Source of the DNA: Phalacrocorax aristotelis
Taxonomy: Eukaryota; Chordata; Aves; Suliformes; Phalacrocoracidae
Assembly (NCBI RefSeq): GCF_949628215.1
Contig: NC_134276.1
Location: 132,184,125 to 132,248,124, forward strand
DNA length: 64,000 nt
Reading direction: 5' to 3'
The notes beneath the pieces are model-generated. The model worked only from the letters and a program-made list of their open reading frames with translations, did not search any database and had not been told where the DNA came from. This document shows, in pieces, positions 13,648 through 64,000 of this stretch. Position 1 is the stretch's first letter, and each line of letters opens with the position of its first letter. A program made the position numbers and the translations under genes.

Positions 13648-22130
<8,483 letters not shown>

Positions 22131-24700: not shown

Positions 24701-26129
24701 TTTACATCTGCTTGAAAGGAATTTGTACCCTGGCACACAATGAGGCTCCAACAGCTGCCACAATTTTGTAGCAACAGACCAACAGTGCTCGACTTGCTGG
24801 GGAACCCCCATCCACCCTCACTGCACACATACCCTGAGCTCTAAGCCTCGAGCTCCACACGCTGTGTGAGAGCTGCTGTTGCAGCCTATTCTAGTGACAC
24901 ACGCACACTAGAAACAAGGAAGTTCAGCAAAAAAGGACCCCTTTTATGAAGGTGATTTGCAACCAAACCTTTTATCCCATGCACAGAGGAGGGTATATAT
25001 TCTCATCCTGCCAAGTCCAGGAGAAGAGACAGTTTGCTCAGGCACCTGTCCGAAAGCCTGTCTGTGTGTCACACAAGACGATACTGATGAAGGGAAGTTG
25101 GGTAACATCCTTCTGTTGAAAGCTCAAGCCTGAGAATCCGCACCAGCATGTCCCACCAGAGGCTGCCCACATGAATGGCTGCCCCACACCCCTCAAAAAC
25201 CTACTGGACACTTTTTGCCAATGGGATGTTTCCTGAACCATCTGGTGGAGAAGCAACAGCAGTGGGGACAGAAGCAAAGAGCATATGAACTGTGTGGTGG
25301 GATTTCCCTTGGCAAACTTGGCTGATGGGCAGGGAACTGTACCAGTGACGAGCCTGATCCTTCACCCCCGCTCTGCTCACAAACCCAGCAGAGCATTTAT
25401 TTGCATTTATTTGCTCCCCACAGAGGACAGAGATGATACCAGGGGAAAGAAATCCTTCTTCCCCATTCTGTTTCATGCTTCTCACCACATCCTCCCTACC
25501 AGTGGAGGAAGTCTATTCAGTATGCAATACCAAGTGCTGTTAAATTTAGGATTATATTTACCAAATTTACCAAGGGATGCTGGAAAGCACGGGGACGAAG
25601 GTGGGTTTTTGTTGTTGTTTTTCCAAGGAATCTGGATGTTTAAACTGGGGGGGAAATTTAGCTAAAGACCTGAACATTCAAACTTGAGCCTCACCAGGGG
25701 CTTTTCTCAAAGGCTGGATGATTCACCACAGCCTTTGGTTTGCTGGCTGAGGAAGAACAAAATCAGCCTGGGGGAGGGAACAATGAACACAGTGACCGAG
25801 TGATGGGAATGGTGATGGGGACGGAAACCTTCCACACTGCTCAAGTGAACATGTCGTGTATGTGATGGCTGCTGGAAAACATGACGCTCTGGAAAAGAAA
25901 AAAGCTGCCACTCAGGACAGCCCTGTCCTCATGCAGGCCTCTCACAGAGGCGGCACCTGCCGAGGACAGGCTGCAGATCTTCTGTGGGTCATCCTGCAGG
26001 CAGCTTTTATTGCAACCCTTGCTTTTAGCTTTTTAGGCGGCGAGCAGACTACGGGACAGGCAGGTTTCTGCCACGCCCGGAGACAGCTGGTCCCACTGTC
26101 CTGTACTAAAATTTCCCCGTCCGAGACCC

Positions 26130-26720
26130 GTCCCTGGGCCGGTTGCTGCCTCTGCGCCGGGAGCTGAGCACCCCCGCCTCGCAGCTCGTAAAACCCAAAC
26201 GCAGATTTGAGGCCCTGGGCTGGGCCCGGGCCCGGGCCCAGCACCGCCCCCGCCCCGCCCCGCCGGCAGGCCCGGCCCTGCGTGAGGGGAGGGGACGGGA
26301 GGGGACGGGAGCGGTGGGGAGGGGAGGGCAGGGCAACGGAGTAGAACGGAGAGCAACGGGTGCCACCATGTTGTGCGGGGGTACCTCGGAGGCCCGCCCC
26401 GCCACCGAGGAGACGCAGAAGATCGCGGACGAGGTGAGGGCGCCGCGCTGCGCCGGGGCGAGCCCCGGGAGGGACTCCCTGAGCCCGGGAGGGGCCTGGC
26501 GGCGGGCGCTACCGCGCCCGGGGCGGGGCGGTCCGGCGGGTCTTCCCGGTACCCGACGCTTCTCCCGCTGGGCCCGGCGGTGCTCTGGGCCTGCTGGTGG
26601 TGCTGGCGGCCCCCGGCCCTCCCTGTGGGCCGGCCTGTGCGGGGACCCGCAGGCTCGGGGCTGGGGGCCCGGAAGCGTTTCGCCGTTGTTCCGCACAGCT
26701 GAGCGCCGAGACGCCCTTTC
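26130..26720 (+). promoter_or_regulatory. CpG-island promoter of the + strand stefin gene
   Basis: Strongly GC- and CpG-rich block around the first exon. It has no TATA box near the start. Repeated GGGCCC palindromes lie at 26222-26238 and CCGCCCC-type GC boxes at about 26244-26262. A purine-rich G-tract block at 26284-26335 contains two perfect copies of GGGGACGGGA (26291-26310). This is the architecture of a broadly expressed gene. Confidence 0.8.
26368..26433 (+). CDS. + strand stefin exon 1
   Basis: 22 codons from an ATG in the strong context GCCACCATG to ...TQKIADE, donor GTGAGG. It encodes the N-terminal trunk with Cys3 and Gly4-Gly5. Confidence 0.95.
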
Positions 26721-29700
26721 CTCTGCCCTCAGTCTAAAAGCAGGAGGGCTGACAAACTCTGGGGGCGTAGTGAGCGGTCGCTGGCCCTCTGCAGCCCTCC
26801 CTGTGTCTTCTTGGCCTTGTGACGTTTTATTGACTTACAGGCAGAGCAGGTTCGGTGTTTTAAGAGGGCGTTTTAGAGGGATTTAGAGAGGAACACAACG
26901 TCGAGTACTCAGGGAGAGCCACAGCTCTGTGTGTGGTGTGCTACCTACCATCCCTGCTCTAAAAGGTCAGTTTTCTTGAGCCTGTGGAAGGAGCTCAAGA
27001 GGTTCTTGCAAAGTCTCAAGAGGTTCTTACAAAGTCTGAATCTCGTAGCTGCTTCTGTTTCTGTTTGTTGAAGGAATAAGTAAGAAAACTTCTCTGCTGC
27101 TTCTGCAACTCTAACCACTGCCAGCTCGAAATCCTGATGCTACTTCAAGTAATTTATATTGTGCCGAGTGACAAGAGAAGGGGCAATGGGCACAAGTTGG
27201 AACACAGGAAGTTCCGCCTTAACATGAGGAAAAATTTCTTTACTGTGAGGGTGACAGAGCAGTGGAACGGGCTGCCTGGGGAGGTTGTGGTGTCTGCTTA
27301 TGTGGAAATATTCAAAACCTGCCTGGATATGTTCCTGTGCCCCCTGCTCTAGGTGTGCCTGCTCAAGCAGAGGGGTTGGACAAGATGATCTCCAGGGGTC
27401 CCTTCCAACCCCTACCATTCTGTGATTCTGAAATTACTTCCCATGTTAATGGAGCATATGCTTTTGTTGTAAAAATACCCGTGTACAACTAAGTCCTTTC
27501 AAAGCATGCGGTCTTGTTTCAGTCATGGAGACTCAAGTTCCTCTTGCTTTCTGGCTTTATCAGCTAGGGTGTGTCAAACCAGTGAAGAAAGAGGAGGGAC
27601 AAGCTCCAGCTTCTTATGCTCTTTGTCATTATCCGGATTTGTGCCCCAGGCTGCAGCAGTTTCTAAACGCACACAGGGCACCCAAAGGCACAACAGTCAT
27701 TGAAATTAAAGTTTAGCTTGTAGAATCTGATGATTTTGCATTTAAAAAAAAAAAGTGCATCTCCTGAGCACTAACCTGAGTCTGCAGTAATGAGTACGCT
27801 ATTGAGATTTGCTGAGGGAGTCACAATTATTGTTTTGACCTAAAAAGGCTTATATGTCGCGTTAAAGATGAGTATGCCATTAATGTTGCACATGAACTGA
27901 AAACTGGATTTGTTTAAAATCCTGAATTTCCATTCTGTGGCAGGCTGCAGTGGTTTGGTAGTCCAAATATAAGATGAAGAATAAAACTAAAACCCATTTG
28001 GATTCAGACAGGAATGGAATTAACCAAAAATCTGGCATTTTCATTTAAATCACCTAAGTATTTCAAAATTTGTCCAGCTTCTTCTGACTGCCAGCTTAAA
28101 TTACTTTATTTAATGAAATATGCATGGTAAAACCCCAAACTGAAATTTGCTCACACAGTCATGTCCATATCTGGGCTACAGATTGTGAAGGAAACATTAG
28201 TTTTCTTAAATCAAGGTAGACTTCTGAAATTAGTTTGCTGAAAGTCAAATTTTTGTGGAGATTTGTTAGAGCCTGCCAGTTTGCTTGCCATAAATGCATT
28301 TCCTGTTCCTGCTTTTCCAGTTCTTGCCTCCATTGTATTGTTTCGCAAGAATCCCGTCGATGGCCAAACATCGCTTAGATTCGTGGGCCCTAGCAAGTAC
28401 TGCTGCTCGCAGAGAGCAGGTACAGTGTGAGACAGAACGGGACAGCTTCACTCCGACAGTGTACCTGGCTTAAGAGTCCCAGAGGAACTGCCTCTCCATG
28501 GCAAGGATTTCCATATAGGCCTGTTCAACCCTTGGCTCCTCACGGGCAACTGTGCAGAGGTTAGTCAGGGTGATTTTGAACCATCTGTTTTTTAGTAACT
28601 GCTCTGGGAGTAAGCAAACAGGCCATGCAGAACAGTAAAGAGCATGACAATTTTCAACCCTGTGATTGAATCACAGGTTGTTTTGGTGTGAAGAGACTGC
28701 ACCTCCTGTGAGCACGGGGTCAGCAGCCCCTCGCTGCTCGGGGCTTCGTCCAGTCAGGTCTTGAAAACCGCTGAGGATGGAAACACCACAATTTCTCTGG
28801 GCAGCCCGCTGTACTGCGGGAGTGTCGTCAGGGGAAATGTTTTTCCTGATATCCAGTCTGAACTGCCAATTTCAGTTCATGACCATTGGGTCTCATTCTT
28901 CCGCCCCTCAGTAAAGGGCCTGGCTTCTTGTAAGTACCGGAAAGCTTTCCTCAAAATCTTCTCTTCTGCCAGCTGAGCAAGTTCATTTTCTTCCTCTCCT
29001 CTCCTCACAGCACAAGTGCTCCAGCCATCTGACCTCATGGTGGCCCTCTGCTGAGCTCCCAACAGTTTACTGACATCTTTCTGGTACTGGGGGCCCAAAA
29101 CTGGACACAATGTTCCTACGGTGCTCTAACAAGTGCCAAGTAAAGGGCCATAATCGCTTGCCTCTGTCTTCTGGCCAGGCTCCTGCTGATGCAGCCCAGG
29201 ATGCTGTTACCTTCGTTACCACCAGGGCACGGTGCTGGCTTTTGTTTAGTGCACCACCCACCAGGACCCCCAGAACTAGACCACGATCATGAACTAGCAG
29301 GGTGGGCTGATAGCAGGTCGTTCAGAGAGTATTTCTCTCTCTGGGGTCTCCCTCCCCATACTGAATCAGGATACCCAGTTGCCACATGCTCTGGTGAGTC
29401 ACTGCCGTGATAACACCCTGACAAGCTTGTAGCTGCATGCGAACCTGAGCTGTCAGCAGTCACAGAGCTGAGTGTTCAGCTTTCTGCTAGTAATACAAAA
29501 TATGCTGAGCCGGGGTGATTTTGAGACCTAAGAAACCAACCTGGCACAGGTTTGCTAAAGGAGCACGTGACAGGATGGGGTCAGTGGGATGCTTGTGTCC
29601 ACCCTCTCCCCTGCTTCTTAAAATCTGTAATAGTAGCTCTAGTGATGAAAACTGACACCACTTGCTCCATCCTCTTGACTCGGGGGAAGGGGAGGAGGGA

Positions 29701-31884
29701 GGACTGAATCACTGTGCTTTCTGGGGCTGTGCCCTTCCTTGCATCCTGGAATGCAAAGTTGTTGGCTGCGCTTTGATTTCCATATGGGAGAAAATACGCG
29801 TAGAAAAGCATCCAAACATCATTATCTTCAGACGTACTGTTCATAGCCCGAGGAATTGTAGAGGTGTTGCCTCTGAAAGATGATGTGCAGTATGGTCAGG
29901 GCTCCCAGGGACAAGACGGTCACTGATGAGCTGTCTTGGAAAGGCGCCAGAGTTTGGTCCTGTACCTTCTCAGTGCTGGACAGGTGGGAGAACATGCCCT
30001 GTTGCAGGAATTGTTTCTGTTCCTGCTTCACTCTAGAACACCTGAGCAAGGGCAAACTGGCACTTGTTTTCCCCCCAAGGAAGCAGGTGGAACTCAGGCA
30101 GGAGAGCAAATATATTTATTCCCCTTGAATTTAGGAAGAAGGGGAAGTACACCATATAGCTGGGAAGAGAAAATCTACTCATTGCTGGTACTGTTGCACT
30201 GGGAGTGGAGGGAGGGTGACATAATGAGCTGAGCGGGGGTGATTTTGAGACCTAAGAACCACCTTGTACAGTGCCTAGGAATGCTAAAGGAGCACGGGAC
30301 AGGACAGGGTAAGGCCAGCAGGAGGTAAGGCCTGGGTAGAGCTGCGCTTGCAGCAAGGACTCCCAAGGCTAATTCATATTACTCTTGTGAACAAAGCCTG
30401 CTTTTTACCGTATAGCCATGACGTTCTAGAGAGCCAAAGCATGGGAAAGAAGAGCTGCAACTCATCTGAGCTCATGCCTCCCCACGGGGTATTGGGCAAG
30501 TTATTCTGACTCCTTGAGCACTGGTTTTGCACGCTGGAAACTGGGATGATATCTCAAAGGGCTTTTTAGTTCTGTCTTAGATACACAGGACAGGAAGGGA
30601 AGCTGAGACATCAACAGGGCAAATCATTTGTCAGAATAAATCTTCTAGATTTATTCTAGAACCCACGCAGTTCTCTGTTGGAGGCTCCAGACTTGGTGTC
30701 AGTCTGTGACAACTGAATCACACCTCTGACTTGGCTTTGCTGCCTGTCTAGATTTCTGGTCTTGCTTTAACACAAAACATTATTCATTTTAATCTTTTAA
30801 AAACTTGGAAAAGCAGGAACTCTGTGTCTGGGAATTGAGCAGCAGTGACCTGGCAGGTACAGAGGCACGCTCATAGTGTGGGCCTGAAGTCCTAAGTACT
30901 TGAATCTTGCATCAGTCTTAAATAACCTATTGTTTGCTTAAGGTGAAACCTCAGCTAGAAGAAAAAGAAGGGAAAACATTTGATGTCTTCACTGCAGTGG
31001 AGTTTAAAACTCAGGTGGTTGCTGGAACAAACTACTTCATCAAGGTAGAGGACACTGGGCAATGGGATTTTTTTTTTTCTTTTTAATTAATATATAATAT
31101 TTGGAAGGGTGTTTTTTTTCTTTACTTACCCACAGAGGGATGCTTATGATTACAACCTAAGAAAAAAAAAACCTGGGCATTTAAAAAAAAAATCCACCCC
31201 CACCTCCCAGCTCATCTCTGTGACTGTCTTAAATGGAGATAAGGGTACTTCCCCATTTTCATTACTTCTACTTTTCAGTTATTTTGTGAAACTTGGTTTT
31301 GGGGATAACCACACATCTGTGATGCTGAGCACTAACATTGCATTAGGTGAAGTCCAGCTGCGTAATGATGCAGTGCAGCATCAAACCTGCACTGACTCTG
31401 CCTGTAGCGATGCCACACACAAAACCAAGCAACTGTGATCAAAGCACGGAAGTGCTGCTTGTGCCAGATAAGATTAGAGCGTTTTGCGTGTAGTCGCTTC
31501 TATGCAACTCCGATTCCGTACCCGTCTATTCCCTATCTCAGGCACAGGGAGGATTAACAAGCATGGTAGGACGAGGTGGTATTTCCACAAAGTCAGGACT
31601 CACGGTCTGGTTTAAAACAAGACCACACACCTGAGGTGATGGTTTTTCTTACCACCTCTCTGCTTCTCCGTCCTCCAAACACACCAGTCTACACCATCCC
31701 TCCTGCTGAAGGCTGCTGTTACTCTGTGGAACTCACTGGTTTTCATGCTTTGCAGGTCCATGTTGGCAATGATGAGTTCATTCACCTGCGGGTGTTCAGA
31801 AGTCTTCCTCATGAGAATAAGCCGCTGAGTCTCCACAGTTACCAGAGCAGCAAGACTAAGCACGATGAACTGGCTTATTTCTAG
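26368..31884 (+). CDS. Stefin (type-1 cystatin), stefin-B-like residues, 98 aa
   Basis: Cytosolic inhibitor of papain-like cysteine proteases (cathepsins L, S, H and B). Coding parts 26368-26433, 30943-31044 and 31756-31884 join in phase 0 into 22 + 34 + 42 = 98 residues, the standard stefin length and exon pattern. All three inhibitory elements are present: an N-terminal Gly4 trunk (MLCGG), QVVAG at residues 46-50 and LPH at 73-75. There is no signal peptide. Position and orientation next to CASR fit the CSTA locus, yet Mx[18 protein letters not shown] and KHDELAYF are closer to human CSTB as I remember it, so I leave the symbol open between CSTA by position and CSTB-like by sequence. Confidence 0.96.
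27160..27430 (+). mobile_element. CR1 LINE 3' end fragment
   Basis: Translation reads [38 protein letters not shown] and a CPLL terminus with stop, followed by the 3' UTR 'ggttggacaagatgatctcc' and the CATTCTGTGATTCTG tail. It belongs to the same subfamily as the copy at 145-1040 and lies in sense orientation in the stefin intron. Confidence 0.95.
28662..29300 (-). mobile_element. CR1 LINE, antisense, 5'-truncated
   Basis: The low-coordinate end 'gaatcacaggttg' is the reverse complement of a CR1 3' end. The reverse strand translates in broken frames to pieces such as [20 protein letters not shown] and [12 protein letters not shown], equivalent to FWAPQFKKDxELLERVQRRA and SQHCALVAKKA. It is more diverged than the copies at 145-1040 and 27160-27430. 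The 5' limit could lie up to about 100 bases further on. Confidence 0.88.
29504..29580 (+). repeat. Dispersed direct repeat, copy 1
   Basis: A 77-bp unit beginning 'gctgagccggggtgattttg' and ending 'aggatgggg'. A second copy lies at 30228-30310 in the same orientation about 720 bp away. I do not recognise the family. Confidence 0.8.
30228..30310 (+). repeat. Dispersed direct repeat, copy 2
   Basis: An 83-bp unit beginning 'gctgagcgggggtgattttg', with 'gctaaaggagcacg' shared near the end. It differs from copy 1 by a few substitutions and a short indel in the middle. Confidence 0.8.
30943..31044 (+). CDS. + strand stefin exon 2
   Basis: 34 codons (102 nt), the invariant size of stefin exon 2. 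It starts [11 protein letters not shown] and contains the first inhibitory hairpin, QVVAG, followed by TNYFIK. Acceptor TTGCTTAAG, donor GTAGAG; the donor is a weak match to consensus. Confidence 0.96.
31045..31755 (+). other. + strand stefin intron 2
   Basis: Intron of 711 bp starting with a T-rich tract. No repeat or RNA gene is recognised in it. Confidence 0.9.
31756..31884 (+). CDS. + strand stefin exon 3
   Basis: 43 codons including TAG at 31882-31884, starting [14 protein letters not shown] and ending KHDELAYF. It carries the second inhibitory hairpin LPH. Acceptor ATGCTTTGCAG. Confidence 0.96.
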
Positions 31885-32584
31885 CAAGCTTATGTTGTGC
31901 ATTTCCTAAAGGCTTCTTATGTGCATTTTCTGTAGGCTGCAAAATGTTGATTCCTGTGCCAACAACGGAGAAAAGGAAGTGTCTTTTGTTAACCTTAATG
32001 CTGGAAAAAAACAGTTGCTTTTATGCCACTCCCTTCCTGTGCAATATCTAAATTTTAGAGTCACGTGGCTCTGCTTTCACCTACGCTAATGCAAACCCAA
32101 GTAGCTGCGCTGGCTTCAGTGCAACTTGACCAGAACACTGTGGCTGAGTCCTGTTTGTGGACTGCCCTGGCCTGGAAACTGAAAGGAGAGTGGCACTCAT
32201 GTATTTGCAGGAAGGACCAAGAGGAAAACCTGAATCTTTGCTGTGCTGTTTTGCAGCTGTGAGTATATCTGTAGATTTAAATTGTACTATGTATTTTATT
32301 GGCAACGACCTGAGGAGAGACTTGAGCTGAAGCGATTCTGAAAGCAAGAGAAAGAGGGGAGTGATGGTCTTTTGAAACATTCCCATGTTTATCCTTTTGC
32401 AGCAGTAGGCTATAACGTCCAGTAGAGGGTGTATGAGTTTAAAAAAAAATCAACAGAAAAAACAAAACCAAACAAAAAAAAATAAACAAAAAAAAGAGAA
32501 AAGAACAACTTGCTTATTTTCTCAGTCCTAGGGAAAAGTCCTGGAAAGGAACTTCAGCCGGACAAGCGTTTCTGCATTGTTAAC

Positions 32585-32590
32585 AATAAA
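32585..32590 (+). promoter_or_regulatory. Poly(A) signal of the + strand stefin
   Basis: AATAAA about 700 bases past the stop codon, followed within 40 bases by a GT-rich stretch as expected for cleavage. Confidence 0.6.
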
Positions 32591-32599
32591 TATTTCTCT

Positions 32600-33850
32600 T
32601 GAGTGGAGGTGGCGTGTTTGACTGGTGTTTCACTGTTCTCTTTACTGGTTTTCAATATTGGTTATGTTGCTCAGAGTTTTATTCCATGAGTGTTCTTCAT
32701 TATCCAGATAACCTTATGTTTAGTTTGTATTTTAATTAGAAATACTTTACATTAATCTGGTGAGGGACAAGAAGAGCTTCTGCAGGTATGTCAGCAGCAA
32801 AAGGAACGCTTAGGAAAGCGTGGGCCCTCTGTGCTCAGTGGAGCAGGGGACCTGCTGACAGAGGACACAGAAATAGCTGAGGCACTCAATGCTGCCTCTG
32901 TCTCGGCCATTAGTGGCAGGACTTGCCTTCAGGAATTCCAGGTCCCAAAGAGGAGCGGGAAAGGCTGGAGAAAGGAAGACTTCCTTCAGCAGAGCTGGAC
33001 CAGGTTAGGGGAAAAACTAACTCAAACTGGATTTAGACAATGCCTTGTTTCATTAATTTGAGAGTGGGGCAGGGGTTGCTGCACTCTGAACTGAGAGGAA
33101 ACGGCCCGCTTCTGCCTGACGCTGCTGCATGTCCTTGGCCACAGACCCAAGAAACAGCAAGCAGCTTTGAGAGCAGAGGGGATGGCAAACTTACACACGT
33201 TACTGGGCTTTTTTGTTGCAGGTGTGCTCTGCGTGAGCGTGTAACCAGCATTGCTTAGAAGGAATCTGTTCTGTTTCCTGATTATTGGGGTGGGGGAGTA
33301 TAAACTCTGCAAAACCCTGCTTTTGCTTTTATCAGCCCAAAGAGTGCCCCCCACACACACACGCACCCCTCAATATGAAATAAAGGCAGGACGTACCTCT
33401 GGCTTATTATGGCCCATCCTCCCGCTCCTTCAAGGAGCTCATTCCTGCCTCCCCACCCTGGTCCCATACGGTGAAGCTGCACTTAAAGCAGGGGGGGACG
33501 GGACACACAGCTTGGCTTCTCCATTGCCCTGTGCCGGAAACCAGCTGTCTGACTTTCTGAGGAGTGGGCAAGACCCTGTATCTAACGCGCTTAAAGCAAA
33601 CCCAAGAAGCCACATGCTGAAGTACGTAGCCTGTTATGCCTGAAGCATGCTCAGGAGGCCCACGTTTTGTCTTCAGAGGATGCCTGACTCTTTTGGAAAG
33701 AGGAGCTGAAAAGGGTGTGCTCTGTCTTGCACCTATAGTACCTCAGGTGGGAGAAACAGCCTTGAATAGTATTTCAGACCTACATGAGCTTTAGCCATGC
33801 AGCAGACCTAGAGATGACACACAGTAGATTAACAAATAGCTTTCAAAACT
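32600..33850. other. Gap between the two convergent stefin genes
   Basis: Between the two presumed 3' ends. Nothing recognisable: no exon of a third stefin and no named repeat on either strand. Confidence 0.7.
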
Positions 33851-33853
33851 TAT

Positions 33854-33859
33854 TTTATT
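33854..33859 (-). promoter_or_regulatory. Candidate poly(A) signal of the - strand stefin
   Basis: TTTATT on the + strand, that is AATAAA on the gene strand, 75 bases past the stop codon. It would give an unusually short 3' UTR. Confidence 0.5.
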
Positions 33860-33934
33860 TTCATGCATTTCCTGATGACACAGGCAGAACCCACATGCGA
33901 CTTGGCAGAAGTGAGGCACCATTCCTCATTGTGT

Positions 33935-34063
33935 CTAGAAGTAGACCAGAGGATCGTCTTTGGTTTTGCCGGTTTGATAACCATCAAGCCTGGGACTTTC
34001 ATGCTTATAAGGAAGGCTCTGAAACACCCTTAGGTGGACATAGTCGGCATCGGCAACTTGGAC
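33935..34063 (-). CDS. - strand stefin exon 3
   Basis: 129 nt, 42 residues and TAG. It begins [19 protein letters not shown], with acceptor TTTTGGTTTCCAG on the - strand. The size is identical to exon 3 of the + strand gene. Confidence 0.95.
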   Translation of the reverse strand, partial: VQVADADYVHLRVFQSLPYKHESPRLDGYQTGKTKDDPLVYF

Positions 34064-37000
34064 CTGGAAACCAAAACAGCGGGAAAGTGAGGATCCTGGG
34101 TTCAAAGCAGGTTCAAACAAAAGGATGCTCTTTACATACTTGGATGAATCTCTTTGCTCAGGACCTTAATTTTAGGTCTATTGCCATTTTTACTACAACA
34201 GCTCTTAACTCAAGTCTGGATAGTTACTGGTGGCAGAAGCTGTCTACACCGTAATATAAACCTTCAGACTCACATAAACGGAAAATGAGTAGGACTGCTT
34301 GGGTGTGGAAGCACCAGAAGGCACAAGAGGAGAAAGGATGCCATCAAAACTTATGTAGGTCATCAAGAGTCATGATTTTCTGAGGCTTCCATTTTATCTC
34401 TGATAATAAGAGGAGATCCTGTGACACGGGTAAACTTTTTTTTTCATATTGAAATGTCAAAACTTGAAATATGTTTGGAAGTCCAAATCTGCATGCTGCG
34501 GTTTTTATGAAGAGAGCACTTCTAAATGGTGGGCTGGTGTTACGATGGATTAAAAGAAAATTAGGATTTTGCGCAGCATATAGAATATAACAAAACAATC
34601 TTGAAGTTGGAGAGTTGAAATGTTTGCTTTGTAAAAAGATGCTGCAAGTAAATGAATGATTCTTACGTTTTCTCCATAAAAACACCTGCCTTCTGTCAAT
34701 CTGATATCAACATTTGCTAAGGGAGCAGTTGGGCAATATTAGAAACTCATACATTGTACAAGAATCACCTGTGTACCAATGAATAATCAGGAATATTCAT
34801 GTATCGTGAATAATAATTCAAAAAATGATGCTTTAATTGAGGAAATAGGTAGCCTGTCAGTACCTGGCGCCCACAGAGCAGAAATAACTGTTAAGAGTGT
34901 ATTTTAAGGAAGATCCTGGGAAAGAAGGTGGTTTGGCAGCACCTGTCCTCCCTGGGATTAACTAAATACGAGAAGCGTGGAGCAAATGCTCATAATGTCC
35001 CTCTGCAGAATAACTATCCCCCAAACCCTACCTGCCCATTTCTTTAATAAAAAGATTCTGACCCTTGTCAAGGGAGCGTATCCTACCAGGCATACGTCTG
35101 CACACACACGGTGTTAAGATAGAGCAGCCACATGCAATGTTTGCTCTACTTCCAGAAAGCCAGCCTGCCGTTAAGCAATGCTTTCCGGCCTTCACTTGCA
35201 AAATACGCTCAGCAATTTCTTATGCGTTACTTCACAGAAAGCTGCTCAATCCACGGGTAAGATTTTCTAGTAGAGGATGAACGGTGCTATCAGAGGGCTC
35301 CGAGTTAAGCATTACTAATCCTTCCTCCACAAAAGAAAGGGTTTTTTGAAAATATAGAACTAGCAGGCGAGCTGTACCTTTGCAGCACGTGACACGGGAC
35401 CAAAACATCAACACGCACGCTTGCATGCAAAACTAGTCAGCTGGTGTATGAGGTGCTTCCATTACTTTTTTTTTTTTAAATTAAACTAAATTCACTCTAA
35501 CTCTCCATCAGATCCTCAGGCTGACTTCAAATTCATCATAACAAACACAGTTGGAGGACACAGAGGCAATAGGAAAGCTGCTTTGCCTTGAAAGGAAACA
35601 GGAGAGAGCAGGGTTATGACTAGTTTAAATAATTTGAGCTGATAAGGCAGTCTATAGTCTTGAAGTGAGATGATCCCAAGAAACTTATCATTCACATCTG
35701 AAGAAGCACAGTGCATGTTTTATAAGTTTTTTTATTCCTGTAGTGCCAAACAGAGGAATTTTAGAAGCCTCTGGAGATAGCCCCTAACTCTGTCAGTCAC
35801 GTCAGATGGTTTTCTACTACATTTGCTTCTCTGTCTTGCTATAAGCCACTATGCAAGTCACCTATACTGTTTAATGGCAAAGCATCCCCTCCTATAATGC
35901 ATACAAACCTTAATAAAGTAGTTTATCCCAGCAACCACCTGCGTCTTAAATATTATGGCTTTAAAGATCTCATATGTCCTGTTCACCTTATTTTCCAATT
36001 CCAGCTTCACCTGGAAAAAGAAAGGGAAAAATGGTTGGCAGGTTCATACTTAGGCTTTTCTTGCACAACTACCACTCCAGTTTTCATCCTTTCAAACAAT
36101 CGCCCTCAATGAAATGAACCCAGAACCCCCAAAATAATTCTGTTTACACCAGGACCTCCAGCCCTCTTTCCTAGCATTGCCTCCTCCAGCATTCTTCAAA
36201 ATCCTGTCAGAATTAGACTTCCTAGCTGATTTCCCCCTGCCCCAAAAGCTGTCCAGCTAACTGCCTCCCGCTCGGTACAGGGAAACTGCTACCTGCTGCC
36301 CTTTAAGTTCTTTGTCAACGTAGCTAGGTACCAAGCCATGCTCCCTAGCAGGGTACACCCTGTGTCAACTGCACCGTTACACAGCGGTGCAAGTCAGCCC
36401 CCCTCGCCAGGAACACCTGCGCCCACGCCAGTCAGCCTGGGAGGCTGCGGACCCCTGCTGTGTTTCACAGCCTCAGACGTGCACTCCATCTGTTTAACGT
36501 TCTTCTTTAAGGGCTTGCAATAAACAGGGTTATCTGAGAGTACCAAGACAACCACCTGATCAAGTAGTTCCTGAAAGTTATTCTAGTGCTTGTGGAAGCC
36601 CTGCAGATCAAGCTGTGATTTACATCAGATATGTCCTTAAACATCTAGGAGTGGGCAAAATACAAACAGCTGTAATAGTTACAGTGGTCCAGGACTAAAC
36701 TACGTTTGTCCATCTCCCAAACTGGAAGTACAACCTTTGGACTGTTAGCCAGAAATCAATCCCAGACCTGCATAAACATCATTAGTCCTTTACTATGTAG
36801 CAGCTGCAGATATTGTCGTTCCAGAAGAAACAATGCTCTGTGCTGACAGCATTTATGCTCACACCTCAGACAGATGTGTTTATGCACAGTACCCAGTTTA
36901 AGCCCTGTAGATTTCAAATACGCACCGTTCAGACATCTACAGCCTTTTTACATACATATTAAGCAAAAAAAAAAAAAAAAAAAAAAGGGGGGCAACAGTT

Positions 37001-39858
37001 TCTCCGGAAACACACAAAGCGTAGGGCAAGTTTTAAGTTCACCAGCAATCGCAGTGGTACTGTCAGAGGTCAAAGATTTGTATAATTACTAGGCTGAAAG
37101 AGGAGTGGGGTAGCAGGGGAGGCAGCTGTGAGCAGCAGTGAAAGGCCGGCCAGGTGTCTGAGGCATCATGATCTATGTACCAGGGTAATGGTGTTTTACT
37201 ACAGTCCTTTGCACCTGATGATACAAACTCCCTCGAGAACGGCAGCTGCACCGACTGTCACCTGAAAACTGACTTCTGTTACCTAGGAAGCACAAACAGT
37301 ATTTTGCACGCTGGGTAACAGCCCCTCCTCTGCACGTGGCACCCATGCCGATGGCCACGCAGGGCAGAGGCATTCCCAAAGTGGGGCAGGGGAGCGCAGT
37401 GTCACTCGGCAGCCTGCTCAGGCAGCCCCCGAGAGGGGCCAGCAGCACATCAGCGCTCCTCACCACCCACCTGCTGGTTCTATCCCAGGGAACCAGCAGC
37501 TATACTTTCAACTCAGGAGCTGCTAATTCTAGCAAACCAGGGAAACTTCAATTTCCAAACCCTTTCAGCTGTCTGGGGGCTCCTAGCATGCTCCTAAGCA
37601 GCATCTTTTGGTAGATATTATTCAGAACAAAACAAAGCCCGTTCTCTCCCATTTTACCATCTGCCACAGCATTCCCCATTTGTTATTTACAGACAAAGCC
37701 TTCAGTAAAATCAGGCAGGTGGACAGCTCCTTAATCCTCAGATGGAGAAAGATATCATTCCTAAGCTCTTATCTAACAGCTCCTTAAACCCAAAACATTC
37801 CTCCGTTTTAGGCAACAGCCGTAAAACAAGGAGACCGAATATATAACATTCCCCAGCTCACTAAGGATTAGACTAGACACCAGGCACAGGTGTAGGGAAG
37901 TAATCATGTAATCCCAAGAGCAGATAGACCATGGCCATCCCAAAGTCCGCAGATGCTCTTCACAACTTCACTCAAACCAGATGACTTGCTTCTCTGCTTA
38001 GCAGAGTGTAAAATCCCACAGAATTGCATCATTAAAGGGCGACACCGTTACGCTGCTGGAAGCAGGGCAGGATTGCCCCAGTGTAAGGTTTGTATCCACG
38101 AGAATTTTTCCCTTAGCGAACTATACCAAAGCCTCTACAGCGGAGTGTGTTCTTTTTCCAAGGAAAAGGACCAGGGAGAGCTCTCTCTCCTGTGCTCAGC
38201 ACAAGGCAAACATTTCACCTTGCAGAAAACAAAGAGCAAAGAGTAAATTGTTTTTGTTTTCCAGAAGTTACTGAGAATGGAAGAATACTAAACATGAAGA
38301 ATGTGAACGCCTCCCTGAGTTAGCCACGCCAGCATGGGGGAAGTGAACGCGTGGCTCTGCCCAACACAGAGTGTAAAAACTAAACAACGAGCAAAAGAAT
38401 TTTGAAGAGAATAGTGGGCTTCAGCTAGCTTCAATCCCTCCTGGCGACTCAGGATGCCCAGTGTCGTGACGTGAGCATATTACAGAGACCAGTAGTGGAG
38501 ATCACACCGGTATTGTGATTGAACTGTGTGTTGGATTGCTGTATTTTGCTGAGAGTAACTTACCTCTGTATTGTGTCACCAGTACATTTGTATCACTCTG
38601 CTAAATCAGAAACCTCATGCAACATCACATATCTTCAAGTAGGTAAAGCTGGTATTAAATATTATACCCTCCACACGTGGAGAATCTAAAAGAACCTGGT
38701 CAGAGTACTGGACTCTTGACACCAGCCTACACAGCCTATTTACAGAGCTCTCCTGGTAGCCTGCCCCTCCACATGCACAGCCCAGGTCACCTTAGTCTGA
38801 TTTCATCACTGCATGGTCTTAGCCTGCAAGGTTGCGGGAGATGTGGAATGGTGCCGACGCAAACTCTGTCCTCTGTGGCACAGCAAAGGAGGGAGGTGGG
38901 AGCCCCGCACACACAGGAGTCTGCAGCAGTATTGGCCAACATGTCCAGCCCCACTACTTCCTGGTTTTGTTTCCTCAAGGAGGAAGTAAGTTATGCTTTG
39001 TGCAGTTGCCAAAGGGGGAAGAGTTCATCTTTCAGGACTGGGAGGGTGAAGGACCTTTCCCATGCTGTGGTGTTTCTGTCCTGCTCCTCAGGGTGCACTT
39101 CATACTCTCTTTTAAGAGTTCGGCACTGCAGGGCATTAGAGGATCTGCAGAGGTGGCATTCATACAGCTGCTTCTAGGACAGGCCCGCTGCCTGCAGCCA
39201 ACCACCACGGCAACTGGGCTCATCCTGCCTGCCTCGCGCCAAGCCCACCTTGCCCCACTGGCTCACCAGCAGCCCCTGCATCACACCTGCGACTCCAGAA
39301 AACACTAGACGCCAGCAGAGAACATGCCATTTATCCATAGCCTTGTCCTGTATCTCTCTTTTTTTCAGTGGATACCACCACATGGTTTGTCCTACCCAAG
39401 TCCTTCAGTGAGGAATTAATTCTACCAGGTACAGTCTTCTCCCTTCAGATATACCACCTTTAATTTCAAACAAGCAACCTCAGCTCTGGCACAGTAGAGC
39501 TTGCCTTTGAACCACACGCAAACGTTAACTGAAGGTAGCCAGTACTATGCCTGGCTGTGGACAAGGATGAGGCAGAGAAAAGGAGGTTTGTCTTGATCTT
39601 ACCGGTACGCTGCCTGTGCAGAATGCTGAGAAAATACTTACTGGCAATCAAGAGGATTCCCATTTTCAGCACTAGCTTCTTCAGTTGAAACACTGGTTCA
39701 GTACCACCACCTGGTTTCCCAGCCTTTGCACAGGCTTCAGGGCTCAGACCTTTGCACACAGAGACTTTGGCTTTCAATAGATTGCAACTCACCTGATCAG
39801 CAATACCCTGGACTTCTGGAGTAGCAGTCTGGGCCTTAGTTAAGCCCCCAGGCACCAT
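33935..39858 (-). CDS. Second stefin (type-1 cystatin), stefin-A-like, 98 aa
   Basis: Complete second stefin on the opposite strand. Coding parts in gene order are 39858-39793, 36010-35909 and 34063-33935, all phase 0, giving 22 + 34 + 42 = 98 residues. The N terminus [17 protein letters not shown] resembles human CSTA (MIPGGLSEAKPATPEIQ as I recall it). QVVAG is at 46-50 and LPY at 73-75, so the three protease-binding elements are intact, and the C terminus is [10 protein letters not shown]. There is no signal peptide, so it should be cytosolic. The gene is tail-to-tail with the other stefin, about 2 kb between stop codons. All splice sites are GT-AG and the frame is open throughout, so it looks functional. 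CSTA or a lineage-specific paralogue are both possible. Confidence 0.93.
34064..35908 (-). other. - strand stefin intron 2
   Basis: Intron of 1,845 bp. Nothing recognisable. Confidence 0.85.
35909..36010 (-). CDS. - strand stefin exon 2
   Basis: 102 nt, 34 codons: [19 protein letters not shown], then [15 protein letters not shown]. Acceptor CTTTTTCCAG and donor GTTTGT on the - strand. The exon has no start codon and is short, so it is found only by the QVVAG motif and its flanking splice sites. Confidence 0.93.
36011..39792 (-). other. - strand stefin intron 1
   Basis: Intron of 3,782 bp containing a 22-base A run followed by six G (36965-36992). Open frames on the + strand at 38677-39308 are judged chance. 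No repeat family is recognised. Confidence 0.85.
36965..36992 (+). repeat. A22-G6 simple tract
   Basis: Twenty-two A followed by six G. It could be the tail of a very old retroposed fragment or plain slippage; no TSD or body was recognised. Confidence 0.8.
39793..39858 (-). CDS. - strand stefin exon 1
   Basis: 22 codons ending VQGIADQ, donor GTGAGT on the - strand. The ATG is in the strong context TTGCCACCATGG. Confidence 0.95.
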
Positions 39859-39940
39859 AGTGGCAACTAACTTCTCTAAAATGATGTGTGGTTCTGAAGA
39901 AGGAACTTCAGCGCAGTCTGAGCAGCGTCACCAGGCATCG

Positions 39941-39950
39941 CATATATATA
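39941..39950 (-). promoter_or_regulatory. TATA box of the - strand stefin
   Basis: TATATATATG on the - strand about 83-92 bases upstream of the start codon, which would place transcription start roughly 55 bases before the ATG. The surroundings are not CpG-rich, unlike the promoter of the + strand stefin. This suggests a regulated, tissue-restricted gene. An alternating TA/CA stretch around it could also be a simple repeat. Confidence 0.55.
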
Positions 39951-39959
39951 CACACATAT

Positions 39960-46573: not shown

Positions 46574-55686
<9,113 letters not shown>

Positions 55687-59000: not shown

Positions 59001-62000
59001 TGGTGGTTTTTGTTTTGCTTTTTTCCTTTAAAAGGGAGATGGGAGGTGGGAAAGCTGTTTATCTTTGCAGTTTATTTACTAGATCATAATGGTATGTTAT
59101 GAATGGAAACCTTCCCATATGGCATTCTGAATGCTTTTTTATAAGGAGTTTGAAGGACTGAGCTGAAAATTAAGGGTCTAATCTTTGCCTGTGATCATCT
59201 ATTTGATTATACCCCCAGAGAAGATCAAATCTTACACTCCCTGGAAAAGTTAACATTCTGTCATGCAATGGTGTGGCATATGGGCTTTTCTGTAGCAGTT
59301 CCATTTGATTTATTTTACTTTTTTAAACTAGTTTAAATGTAATAGGAAAATTATAATATCACAGCAAGCTTAATATCTCAGGAAGCTTAAATGCTGGAGA
59401 AGGTTCCGCAAATTCAGAGCTACAAATATAGAGGTCTTGGGCAAGATTCGGCTTTCCTTACATGGCCTCAGTTTAATCCATATTTACAGGTTTGTTAATC
59501 TGACTGCAATATACCTTTTGTTCCCTAACCAGCTCTAGCGATGATACTTCTACATACTTCAAGCAATTCTGCATTGCTCGCCCTAACTGGTTTCATTACA
59601 GATGTGCAATTTGTATTCTTTGACAGTTTGGTTGGATTGTTTGTTGTTTTGGGTTGGGTTTTCTTTTGGGGGGGGGGGGGGGGGGGCGGAATTGGTTTTG
59701 TTTGTTTGTGTGCTTGCTTGTTTGGGGTTTTGTTTGGGGGTTTTGGTTTGTTTTTTTTTTTTCTAGGTCGGTCTCATTTGAGGGTGCCTGGACACAAGCC
59801 TACACACTGGGAGAAAAGATTTTTGTTGTGGGCAGGCCATTTCAAAAAAGCAGAGGATATACCAGAGACTGTCTCGTAAGTGCCAGTTTGGAAGCTGTAA
59901 AAGAGACATTGTCTATGCAGGAATAAGTTACTTGAATGTAACTCTAGAGTAACTTTTCTTAAATGGAATGGGTTTTCACAGCTAAAAAATCTTACGCTGC
60001 TGTGTTTGGTGGTGTTTGTAGACAAGTTGACCTGAGCAATTCTGTATTGCTGAGATAATGTATTCCTTTTGATTTTTTTTGAAGGGATAACCAGCATCTA
60101 TCAGTTGTTTCATTAGAAAACCATCAAGAATCAGTTAATTTTGACTCTTTCTCCGAATCAAAAGCTTTTTGCAAATATTAGTGTGAGTCTTTTTCTCGTG
60201 TTCTTTCTTTATATGTCAGTCTTACATTGTGTGAAACACTGATATAGCTATAAATCAGAAACTCATTTAAAGTATTTATTAAGAAATATCTGGAGGGCAT
60301 GGGCCAACTTTCTCTACTCATGGAATTTAAACTAACAAAGAGTGGAAAGGCTCGCTAACAAAAAATATATATAGGCAAAATTTCCCTGTTCCTGCTGGAC
60401 TCCAAATGTTAATGCTTCGCCCTTTGTGAAGAGCAGAAAATAAAACTGGACATTCTAGTTTGCCTATCTAAAGGCAAACAAAAGGCAATTATTAGTTTAA
60501 AAAACATTCCTGGTAGTAGTTTGGTATCTTTTCAAATATGCTTGTAATGCTTTTAAATTTAAATAAATACATATATTTAAAAGATACAGGAAATCTTGTA
60601 CTACTTGGGCAAGCAAACTATGTAGCTGCCCTCTAAAGATAGTCTATTTGTTATGTATCACAATGGATATATAGTTAAAAATTAGTTCTTCGATTTTGTA
60701 TGGAATAATTTTTCTTAAAATCACATTTGAAATACGTAAAGGTGTAAATTATGAAAACTTAGTAAATTGTCAGTTCGTGTATTTTTGCATACCAAACACT
60801 TGTTATGAGTGTTTTTAAGAAAACAGAGTTAGCAGAGGGATTGAAGCCATTTTTAATGGTTTATTGAAACCAACTTCTGATAAATGCTGACCATTTTTGC
60901 AAGTTGCGTAAGGAAATCTTGTTTTTATTTAGGCAAATAGTTCAGCCAAAGCTGAGAAGACTATTTAGATCTATGAAAGCACAAAAGCTTGCTTTCCTGT
61001 TCTAAGCTGAATTAAGAGTGGGTTGTAAGGGCCTGTGATGTAACTCAGTAATCTTACAAGATGTGGTGATCAGAAGTAACTTACTTATTAAACAAATGTT
61101 CATCGTAGCCACTGAATTGATTTAAAATGCAAATTGCGTTCCTCTTGCATAATTCTAACACGTCCAAGGTACTTCAAAAATTAACTAATAAAGTCTTTTA
61201 AATCCTGCTCCTGTGCATTTCAGCTTAATTACAGCCTGCGCCCAAGTTGTTCATCGCAGATCATTAGCAAAAACAAATAACCTGGAAGCAAAATTTAACT
61301 ATTAGTTTCATGGTAGGTGAACATGTTCCCTCTGCTCAGAAATCCTATGCTCAGATCAATGCTCTGAAACAGTGATCAAATCACTCTTGCACTCCTCTTC
61401 AAAATCAAGAACAAAACTCTCTTCAGTTCTCCGGTCCTATGCAATTTACCACATTGAACTATTGTGGATCCTTCAGTATCTTTTTTTCCTCCAAGTATAA
61501 GGGTCAAAATGTGGTTAAAAAGATTCCATAGTCACTCATGTTTGCATGCAGTGATAATTTCCCAGTTCCATTAAATCCACCATCCATGTTAGTTTTGGGG
61601 TATAATTAGTTTGATGCATTTCTTCTTTCATCACATGATGTTGATGCTTTTCTAGTCATCTGTAATTTTATAATGTGCCAAATTCAATCGGTGAGACTAT
61701 TACATCTCCTTGAGAAGGGACTCAACTGCTCTGAATTCTGCAGAGAGTTAAATATATAGGGTATAGGTCTTTGGTTATTGTGGAAAGCACATCTAAAAGC
61801 GTTTCATTGGCCCCTCTTGCATCAGTATCTCTAATACAAACTTTAAATTTGCTCTGAGATATCACTTCAGAGTTTAACCCCAACTTAAAATAAATGGCTT
61901 TTTGTTTTAACTGATCGCATGTACAGCTGGAAGGATACAGTGATGCTCTTGTGGAAGATTTCTGGTTTTTAAAAGATAACTATGTTAAGTAACAGGTTTC

Positions 62001-62778
62001 CCAAAGGAGTCGTATAGTTACTGGTGTGGCTAGATAAGCCTCCTAAAATAAAAAATTAAACTGAAAAAAAAAAGATTTAAAGGAGTTCTCTGTCCAAAGC
62101 TGATATTGGAAAGCTTACAACGCATCAATACCTCCTTAGTTTCTTAGGAAAATAGATTTCCCTCCTGCTAGAGTAAATAGTCTTAAAGTAGTGGTAACCA
62201 CTGGACTTTTACCAAGTCCTATTCAGATCTTCTGGGGACTATTACATTCAGGAGCCAGTGTGTAAGCTACAGCACTATCAAATCCTGTAGTAGAGGATTA
62301 TCAGTAAAGGCATCCCTCTGCTTCTCCTGTTCTTCCCATAGCGAATGTACATATTTACGTACTGCAGCCTTCCTCCTCTACATTCCAGGCAAGTGGTCTA
62401 GAAAGACAGCATTCTCCCTTAACAATTAACCAAGAGTTAAAAATGTTGGGTTTGTTTCCAACTTTGGGAGGAACTCCTTTGTGACCAAGTACATCCCAAG
62501 GTAGCTCTGGATCAGCCTTTCCCATTCTTGTAAAACCTTTTTGTGAAAAGAGCCGAGTACTGTTAGCATCATACCAGATGACATAGATTGCATGCCTGGA
62601 GAAATCAAACAATTAGCCAAATGGTTTATCTGGGTCTCTGATAGAGTCTGTTCTTTTATTATTCTTGAGGATTGAAACAATCAGAGCAGCAAAGACCACA
62701 CTGCGTGTGAAGTTCAGCTATGTAATGATTGTGTTGACAATATTGGGATGCATAGACATGGTGATTAGAGGGAAGCAG
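56046..62778 (+). CDS. FAM162A: FAM162A (HGTD-P), first four coding exons; last exon beyond the window
   Basis: Mitochondrial single-pass membrane protein; in mammals it is induced by HIF-1 and linked to hypoxia-related cell death. Coding parts 56046-56061, 57219-57344, 59767-59875 and 62670-62778 join with consistent phases into 120 residues starting MWARADEAVKLLGRN. The basic N terminus fits a mitochondrial presequence. The family signature HKPTHWEKRFLLWAGHFKK and EDIPETVS is clear at residues 57-84, followed by VKFSYVMIVLTILGCIDMVI as the membrane segment at about 99-116. The human protein has about 30 more residues (154 in total), which should come from an exon to the right of 64000. An Asp sits inside the membrane segment. 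Confidence 0.95.
56062..57218 (+). other. FAM162A: FAM162A intron 1
   Basis: Intron of 1,157 bp. The first part is the edge of the CpG island; a TATA-type simple repeat lies at 56575-56652. The remainder is plain AT-rich sequence. Confidence 0.9.
56575..56652. repeat. TA-rich simple repeat (GTATATAT type)
   Basis: Alternating TA interrupted by G and C about every 8-10 bases, largely self-complementary ('agtatatatacttatataag'), so it can extrude a cruciform. Confidence 0.85.
57219..57344 (+). CDS. FAM162A: FAM162A exon 2
   Basis: 126 nt encoding DEAVKLLGRNIPSVLRMT to LCIKPQEESQLQPR and one further base. Acceptor CTCTTCCAG, donor GTAAGA. The RRLCIKPQE segment aligns with human GFCTKPQE. Confidence 0.93.
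57965..58990 (-). mobile_element. Ancient CR1/L3-type LINE, antisense, with 3' end
   Basis: Begins with 'ctgggtaggaccaaaggtct', the reverse complement of the 3' end of turtle/crocodile-type CR1. Further landmarks of the antisense element follow in order: 'ttctctgtacccgttctatt', 'ttcattgtttctgaataatg' with 'gtgttgtcagcgaactgtct', and 'tctagataattcatgaatcc'. It is strongly diverged and belongs to the same family as the sense copy at 7860-9530. Confidence 0.7.
59630..59766 (+). repeat. G/T-rich low-complexity tract with G19 next to a splice acceptor
   Basis: G runs and GTTT/TTTGG motifs surround an uninterrupted run of 19 G at 59668-59686, 80 bases before the FAM162A exon 3 acceptor. The polypyrimidine tract (about 13 T) follows directly at the end. 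Confidence 0.9.
59767..59875 (+). CDS. FAM162A: FAM162A exon 3
   Basis: 109 nt, phase 1 in and phase 2 out, encoding SRSHLRVPGHKPTHWEKRF to EDIPETV and two bases of a Ser codon. Acceptor TTTTTTCTAG, donor GTAAGT. It carries the family signature. Confidence 0.96.
59876..62669 (+). other. FAM162A: FAM162A intron 3
   Basis: Intron of 2,794 bp, AT-rich. No repeat family or extra exon is recognised. Confidence 0.88.
62670..62778 (+). CDS. FAM162A: FAM162A exon 4, membrane segment
   Basis: 109 nt encoding (S)IETIRAAKTTLRVKF, SYVMIVLTILGCIDMVI and RGKQ. Acceptor TTATTCTTGAG, donor GTAAGC. The RAAKTTLRVK block aligns with human DAAKNKMRVK. Confidence 0.95.
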
Positions 62779-64000
62779 GTAAGCACAGGTTTTTGGCTGG
62801 TAAGTGCAAATCAATCTTCTAACTCCTCAGTTCCTCCTATAGATTGTTAGTACTGGTTTGGTTTGGTTTGGTTGTTTTGGTGGGGTTGGTTTGGGTTTTT
62901 TTTTCATTTTATCACTGAGCAAAAATTTGGGTCCTCCTAGTTCCCTGGAAGTGACTGTCATTGATAAATTTCCAAGTCAGAAAAGGGTGGTGGCACTGTT
63001 AGACTGTATATGCTTCCTTTAAAAGGACAAAAAATAGTCTCTTTTTCTCAGTGCAATAATTAATTTTAGTTTCTGCTGTTTTAACTCTAATTTTGCTGAA
63101 GGGCTGCAAAAGTTTGAAAGGAATGAGCACCTTCTGTTGTGAGCATCGGGTAGGCAGGTAAATGCTTCCTGGGCCAATGTGGTCCCTTCAGTTCACTGTA
63201 TGGACCTACTACAAGCGCCTCCACATGCTGCAACACTCATAGAATCAATATAATGGCAAGAACAAGTGATTGTTTCTTCAAAAACAGATGAGAATTATCA
63301 AAGTCTTTTTAAACAGTGGGGAGATAGATGGTCAGTAATAATTGTGCCCTTTAATTGCATTAGAAAATAGTCTTCCTTTAGTGTGGATGGAACAACTTTC
63401 CTCAAATTACTATTGTTTGTTGAATTGAAAAACTACTTCATAGAAGAGCTCCCACATCCTGTAGATGCTGACTATCCTTCATTTGCACAGAATTTGACAT
63501 GGTATCAAAGGAGACCAGCATATGGCAGCACTAGGTCTGACTTCATTTGCATCATACAGAGTGAGGAAGTGTAGAGTTTCAGATTCCAAATGCATCAAAG
63601 ACTAGTCTTACCTCAATTTTACTTGTTTTTTAACACAGTTGGTGAACTATTAACTTTGTGGTATTTCTGTAAAGAAGCAAGGAACGTTCTTTGTGAATCC
63701 AAGCTAAAGCCTCTCAGCAGCATTAGTCTCAAAGTCAAGGAATATGAATATCATCTGTGCAGCTTACTGTCATGTTGCTTTTGATAAAAAGCATGGTGGT
63801 AACAGAAACACAGTCCACTCCATTCTTTTAAGGATGACTAGAAGCAGAAAACCTTGAGCTTAAAGCTCTGACATGGGTAGAACCTTGTTTGCATGCTGCC
63901 TTTCTCTGAGCAGTTTGTCCGATGACAATGTTCAGATCTTCTTTCTACAGACAGTAGTGCTGTAGAGAAACCTTAAAACTAGTAACAGTCTCAACCCCAG
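62779..64000 (+). other. FAM162A: FAM162A intron 4 (continues past the right edge)
   Basis: Starts with GGTTT-type simple sequence (62855-62900). No open stretch resembles the expected lysine- and glutamate-rich C terminus, so the last exon is inferred to be outside. Nothing else is recognised. Confidence 0.7.

Follow-up and report, generated by a model that had tools for sequence, protein, structure and literature searches.

A tail-to-tail pair of stefin genes, one B-like and one leaning towards stefin A, between CASR and MIX23 in Phalacrocorax aristotelis

We describe two intact stefin genes that lie tail-to-tail between CASR and MIX23 in the genome of Phalacrocorax aristotelis. The two are the only stefins found in this genome, and we consider it probable that the gene on the + strand is CSTB, that the gene on the - strand is CSTA, and that together they form an old inverted pair. 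The gene that stands in the place and direction of human CSTA is the B-like one. Throughout, the window denotes the whole stretch of DNA that was analysed, which is 64,000 nucleotides long and covers positions 132184125-132248124 of contig NC_134276.1 (hereafter C1); unless a contig is named, positions are counted from the first letter of the window.

A first-pass annotation of the window had claimed two intact three-exon stefin genes in tail-to-tail arrangement, and our analysis confirms this, with a gap of 2,050 bp from stop codon to stop codon. The six coding exons are as follows.

26368..26433, + strand: exon 1 of the B-like stefin, 66 nt or 22 codons; GCCACC precedes the ATG, and the exon encodes Cys3-Gly4
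30943..31044, + strand: exon 2 of the B-like stefin, 102 nt or 34 codons, with QVVAG; found by the genome search for PF00031
31756..31884, + strand: exon 3 of the B-like stefin with its stop codon, 129 nt; PDB match to human stefin B
39793..39858, - strand: exon 1 of the A-leaning stefin, 66 nt, encoding MVPGGL
35909..36010, - strand: exon 2 of the A-leaning stefin, 102 nt, with QVVAG; found by the genome search for PF00031
33935..34063, - strand: exon 3 of the A-leaning stefin with its stop codon, 129 nt

As had also been claimed, the exons measure 66, 102 and 129 nt in both genes, all four introns are GT-AG and in phase 0, the frames are open, and QVVAG occupies residues 46-50. The observation that the middle exon of the - gene lacks an ATG likewise holds, its first codon being GTG (valine). 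The introns are 4509 and 711 bp long in the + gene, and 3782 and 1845 bp long in the - gene. Each gene encodes 98 amino acids, of which 52 are identical between the two proteins; the coding sequences agree at 185 of 297 nucleotides and at 41 of 99 third positions, and an assembly duplicate is ruled out by so low a nucleotide identity.

Membership in the family is clear for both proteins. Against the Pfam Cystatin family (PF00031), for which the cut-off is 22.2 bits, the + stefin scores 82.6 bits and the - stefin 73.4 bits, and the best PDB matches among human stefins have E-values of 1.1e-41 and 1.9e-31, respectively. Both proteins keep the inhibitory residues of type 1 cystatins, namely G4, Q46-G50 (QVVAG) and L73-P74; by inspection, neither has a hydrophobic leader, and there is one Cys in the + protein and none in the - protein. 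We also placed 112 random substitutions into the + coding sequence in each of 20,000 simulated trials. Only 3.6% of these trials were free of stop codons, and the best of them kept 46 of the 98 amino acids, compared with the 52 that are observed. Thus, given the Pfam and PDB scores and the random-substitution trials, we conclude that both stefins are constrained genes rather than chance frames. The NG86 estimate of dN between them is 0.325, and dS is undefined, as it is for saturation.

Since the inhibitory residues are kept in both proteins, we predict from sequence that both should inhibit papain-like cathepsins. The mechanism of stefin inhibition is established family knowledge: both proteins would be cytosolic, tight-binding inhibitors of these enzymes, and Gly4, the QVVAG loop and the LP loop would enter the active-site cleft of the cathepsin.

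The first-pass annotation had also placed the pair at the CSTA locus, and the flanking genes CASR, MIX23 and FAM162A support that placement. Along the window, the genes are CASR(+), stefin(+), stefin(-), MIX23/CCDC58(-) and FAM162A(+); this is the human CSTA locus plus one extra stefin.

17610..17885, + strand: open frame with an NCD3G exon, taken as CASR; domain match
20607..22124, + strand: open frame with a 7tm_3 exon of a family 3 GPCR, which we assign to CASR as its final exon; domain match
46574..54777, - strand: MIX23/CCDC58, four recognisable exon pieces with approximate ends; PF09774
54901..56400, no strand: CpG island between MIX23 and FAM162A
59769..62784, + strand: FAM162A; PF06388 matches two exons here and a third just outside the window

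The family 3 GPCR exons upstream are presumably those of CASR, a name that we give from their sequence and position. For MIX23, the four joined pieces score 58.3 bits against PF09774, and two of the pieces, tested alone in longer frames, match no Pfam family. The FAM162A name is given by position; PF06388 also matches on contigs C3 and C11. Human CSTA is described as lying downstream of CASR, with identical direction (PMC5020072), and in mouse, chromosome 16 carries Csta together with Ccdc58 and Fam162a, and chromosome 10 carries Cstb (PMC2759285). By position and direction, it is the + gene, and not the - gene, that corresponds to human CSTA.

Some repeats were observed in the window as well. 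Two segments, at 27143-27433 (in intron 1 of the + stefin) and at 166-678, look likely to be 3' pieces of CR1-type retroelements; the segment at 166-678 has no match in Pfam. Intron 1 of the + stefin also holds two diverged direct repeats (29495-29584 and 30219-30313) that lie 724-729 bp apart, with pieces that are 84% and 90% identical, and these may represent a short repeat element present twice. When 26000-40100 was searched for repeats, the arms or copies returned were all 26-40 nt long.

We now ask which stefin is which. The + protein is identical to human stefin B at 68 of 98 positions and to human stefin A at 56, and its best PDB scores are 144 bits for human B versus 115 for human A. 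For the - protein, the corresponding identities are 55 (B) and 54 (A) of 98, and the PDB scores of 111 bits (B) versus 109 (A) slightly favour B. The human A and B sequences that were used, the latter carrying Ser3 as in the crystallised protein, differ at 46 sites. At these sites the + protein has the B residue 19 times and the A residue 7 times; the - protein has the A residue at 13 and the B residue at 14, with A versus B matches of 5:3, 4:4 and 4:7 in exons 1, 2 and 3. On the strength of the diagnostic sites (19 versus 7) and of the identities (68 versus 56 of 98), we conclude that the + gene is B-like. The - protein, taken alone, appears equidistant from A and B, and its assignment is undecided on that comparison. 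The + protein and mammalian CSTB also have in common KHDEL and a further stretch of 14 residues (not shown); natural human stefin B has Cys3, and the PDB forms have Ser3. With mammalian CSTA the - protein shares MxPGGL, P14, Y35, T45, G84 and KDD, as well as the locus, but the - gene runs opposite to human CSTA relative to CASR, and its identity to A does not exceed its identity to B.

Topology tests were performed on 98 columns, for four sequences or for seven, of which three were further mammalian stefins entered by hand, and in all three analyses the best topology joins the + protein with B and the - protein with A. With human A, human B and the two bird proteins under LG+G4, the two rival topologies are each 7.0 lnL units worse (pAU 0.044); by the KH and SH tests, at 0.072, they are not rejected. 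Under JTT, the rivals for the same four stefins are each 11.4 lnL units worse (pAU 0.016), and in the seven-sequence tree their pAU values are 0.02 and 0.03. Naming by position, which would make the + gene CSTA, was set aside at a cost of 7.0 (LG+G4) and 11.4 (JTT) lnL units. The orthology of the + gene with stefin B, and of the - gene with stefin A, is thus supported by these trees but not proven.

The two genes have little else in common at the nucleotide level. Beyond exons 2 and 3, they align only at two weak matches of 27-29 bp, which rules out a recent local duplication. Because there is no long alignment of introns or flanks, and because dS is undefined, we take the duplication to be old. 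The earlier comparison with the expanded stefin A cluster of mouse is therefore misleading, in that it suggests young local copies of CSTA. The mouse cluster, on chromosome 16qB3, also has multiple stefins next to Ccdc58 and Fam162a, but it consists of ten highly similar stefin genes (PMC2759285), whereas the pair described here consists of one A-leaning and one B-like gene that are anciently diverged.

Six-frame searches of the whole genome (1.28 Gb in 352 contigs, with 219 Mb in C1) with both proteins, at E-values up to 1, found no third stefin. Each query returned five matches, and all ten were exons in the window; 6 and 5 candidates were scored. Each query recovered exons 2 and 3 of its paralog at 43-59% identity and missed exon 1. 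Given that paralogous exons were recovered at such identities, an ordinary CSTB elsewhere in the genome should have been detected. Other cystatin-domain exons, which account for 6 of the 8 genome matches to PF00031, lie at C3:95226737-95227515 and C7:19652477-19659539; they probably belong to a type 2 cystatin and to a multi-domain gene such as kininogen, and they are absent from the results of the stefin protein searches.

It is also important to consider the place where CSTB is found in mammals. We take human CSTB to lie between PDXK and RRP1, in the order RRP1B-PDXK-CSTB-RRP1-AGPAT3, so that RRP1 and RRP1B presumably flank PDXK and CSTB on either side. The mammalian neighbours RRP1, PDXK and AGPAT3 are all present on the - strand of C1, about 34.6 Mb from the pair.

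C1 97.74-97.75 Mb, - strand: RRP1 or RRP1B (Nop52)
C1 97.67-97.71 Mb, - strand: PDXK
C1 97.51-97.52 Mb, - strand: AGPAT3, at 73-97% identity; a C3 paralog reaches only 45-70%

Direct reading of 190 kb (C1 97632001-97822000) revealed no stefin exon, with best matches at E-values of 2.1 and 0.024, and positions 97521453-97632000 were covered by the genome-wide searches only. In the 145 kb interval from PDXK to AGPAT3, about 35 kb beside PDXK was read directly and the remainder was covered via the genome-wide searches. The match with E-value 0.024 (C1:97702157-97702086) is a stretch of 24 residues in a PDXK intron, 46% identical to exon 1 of human stefin B; it contains a stop, no companion exon was seen, and we take it to be due to chance. 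A single Nop52 (RRP1/RRP1B) locus was found (C1:97741754-97751744, with 4 matches in one place), and it may be that this interval of C1 lacks both CSTB and a second RRP1. The + gene does not have the PDXK-RRP1 setting of mammalian CSTB: it stands at CASR-MIX23, whereas mouse Cstb is reported on chromosome 10 (PMC2759285) and human stefin B on chromosome 21 (PMC10798374).

The two genes differ in their putative promoters, and candidate signals were found at both ends of each.

26001..26900, no strand: CpG island that covers exon 1 of the + stefin, G+C 0.69, CpG o/e 0.76
32585..32590, + strand: likely poly(A) signal (AATAAA) of the + stefin, pattern only
39940..39955, - strand: TATA-like element of the - stefin, some 92 bp upstream of its ATG, pattern only
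33854..33859, - strand: nearest poly(A) signal (AATAAA) of the - stefin, pattern only

Upstream of the + stefin there are two adjacent GC-box matches, and no TATAA or TATATA occurs within 500 bp. The start of the - stefin has no CpG island (G+C 0.44, CpG o/e 0.18), and another TATA-like pattern match lies at -277. Judging from these promoters, the + gene, with its CpG island, would be broadly expressed, and the - gene, with its TATA-type promoter, would be more tissue-restricted. This contrast agrees with the broad expression of CSTB and with the expression of human CSTA in epithelia. The description of mouse Csta as expressed ubiquitously (PMC2759285) speaks against it. In chicken, the chorioallantoic membrane has been found to contain a protein that goes by the name of cystatin B (PMC9237712), with no link to this locus. 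The two stefin transcripts would converge and, with the nearest poly(A) signals, would end about 1.2 kb apart without overlap. By pattern, further AATAAA signals occur at 32481 and 33379 on the + strand and at 32736, 32683 and 32300 on the - strand, and use of the distal ones at 33379 (+) or 32736, 32683 or 32300 (-) could make the transcripts overlap.

Other accounts of the pair must be weighed. Both genes could derive from a duplication of CSTA in this lineage, in which case the B-likeness of the + gene would be a retained ancestral state and the true CSTB would be lost, or missing from the assembly. Human CSTA does lie downstream of CASR in the direction of the + gene (PMC5020072), the cluster at this locus has expanded in mouse (PMC2759285), and the - gene is not clearly of type A. 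We nevertheless find such a duplication unlikely: the topology that it predicts, (+,-)(A,B), is worse by 7.0 under LG+G4 (pAU 0.044, KH/SH 0.072) and by 11.4 under JTT (pAU 0.016), and the lack of any long intron or flank alignment between the copies, together with the undefined dS, indicates that they are old.

It is quite improbable, in our view, that the amniote ancestor had the mammalian arrangement, with CSTB at PDXK-RRP1 and CSTA at CASR, and that in this lineage CSTB was relocated to CSTA, about 34.6 Mb away on one chromosome, with CSTA inverted as well. A single intrachromosomal event could suffice, as both places are on C1, but for CSTB to insert precisely next to the one other stefin found would be a coincidence, and one that a tandem origin avoids. 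We give very little credence to the proposal that the - gene is a pseudogene whose decay does not yet show in its sequence. Although its family score is the weaker (73.4 versus 82.6 bits), its 98 codons are free of stops, frameshifts and splice defects, the inhibitory residues are kept, its amino acid identity to the + protein exceeds that in all 20,000 random trials, and a TATA-like element and a poly(A) signal are both present.

We return to the reading of the pair as CSTB and CSTA, of old and common origin. The A/B duplication has been placed in the amniote ancestor, with both families present in Aves and Reptilia (Kordis and Turk 2009, PMC2784779). The pair may descend from that duplication, with the arrangement later altered in one lineage, either mammals or this one. 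The simplest story is an inverted duplication beside CASR that was retained here and broken up in mammals; an additional small inversion in one lineage would be needed for human CSTA to point the same way as the B-like gene of the bird. Under a more specific version, the pair is the surviving site of the A/B duplication, from which mammalian CSTB moved to the PDXK-AGPAT3 interval while CSTA was inverted into the old place and direction of CSTB. We regard this version as a serious possibility that stops somewhat short of probable.

Both families are reported for birds and reptiles in PMC2784779; its main text contains neither 'synten' nor 'chromosom', and does not treat gene neighbourhood. PMC9203827 refers to fish proteins under the names stefin A and stefin B; such names do not settle orthology. 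Among the literature matches listed, we found no description of this pair; bird genome annotations were outside that search, and the pair may already be annotated there. Neither gene is unusual in itself, each belonging to a known family. The interest of the locus lies in the arrangement, which we find mildly surprising, and in the conflict between position and sequence.

Here the stefins form a tail-to-tail pair, whereas CSTA and CSTB are on different chromosomes in human and mouse. Gene order and sequence disagree on which ortholog is which, and a pipeline that relies on position could label the bird CSTB as 'CSTA'. If the arrangement is common to sauropsids, it would mark the site of the amniote stefin duplication, and the history of CSTB, the gene of Unverricht-Lundborg epilepsy in human, would become testable by gene order alone.
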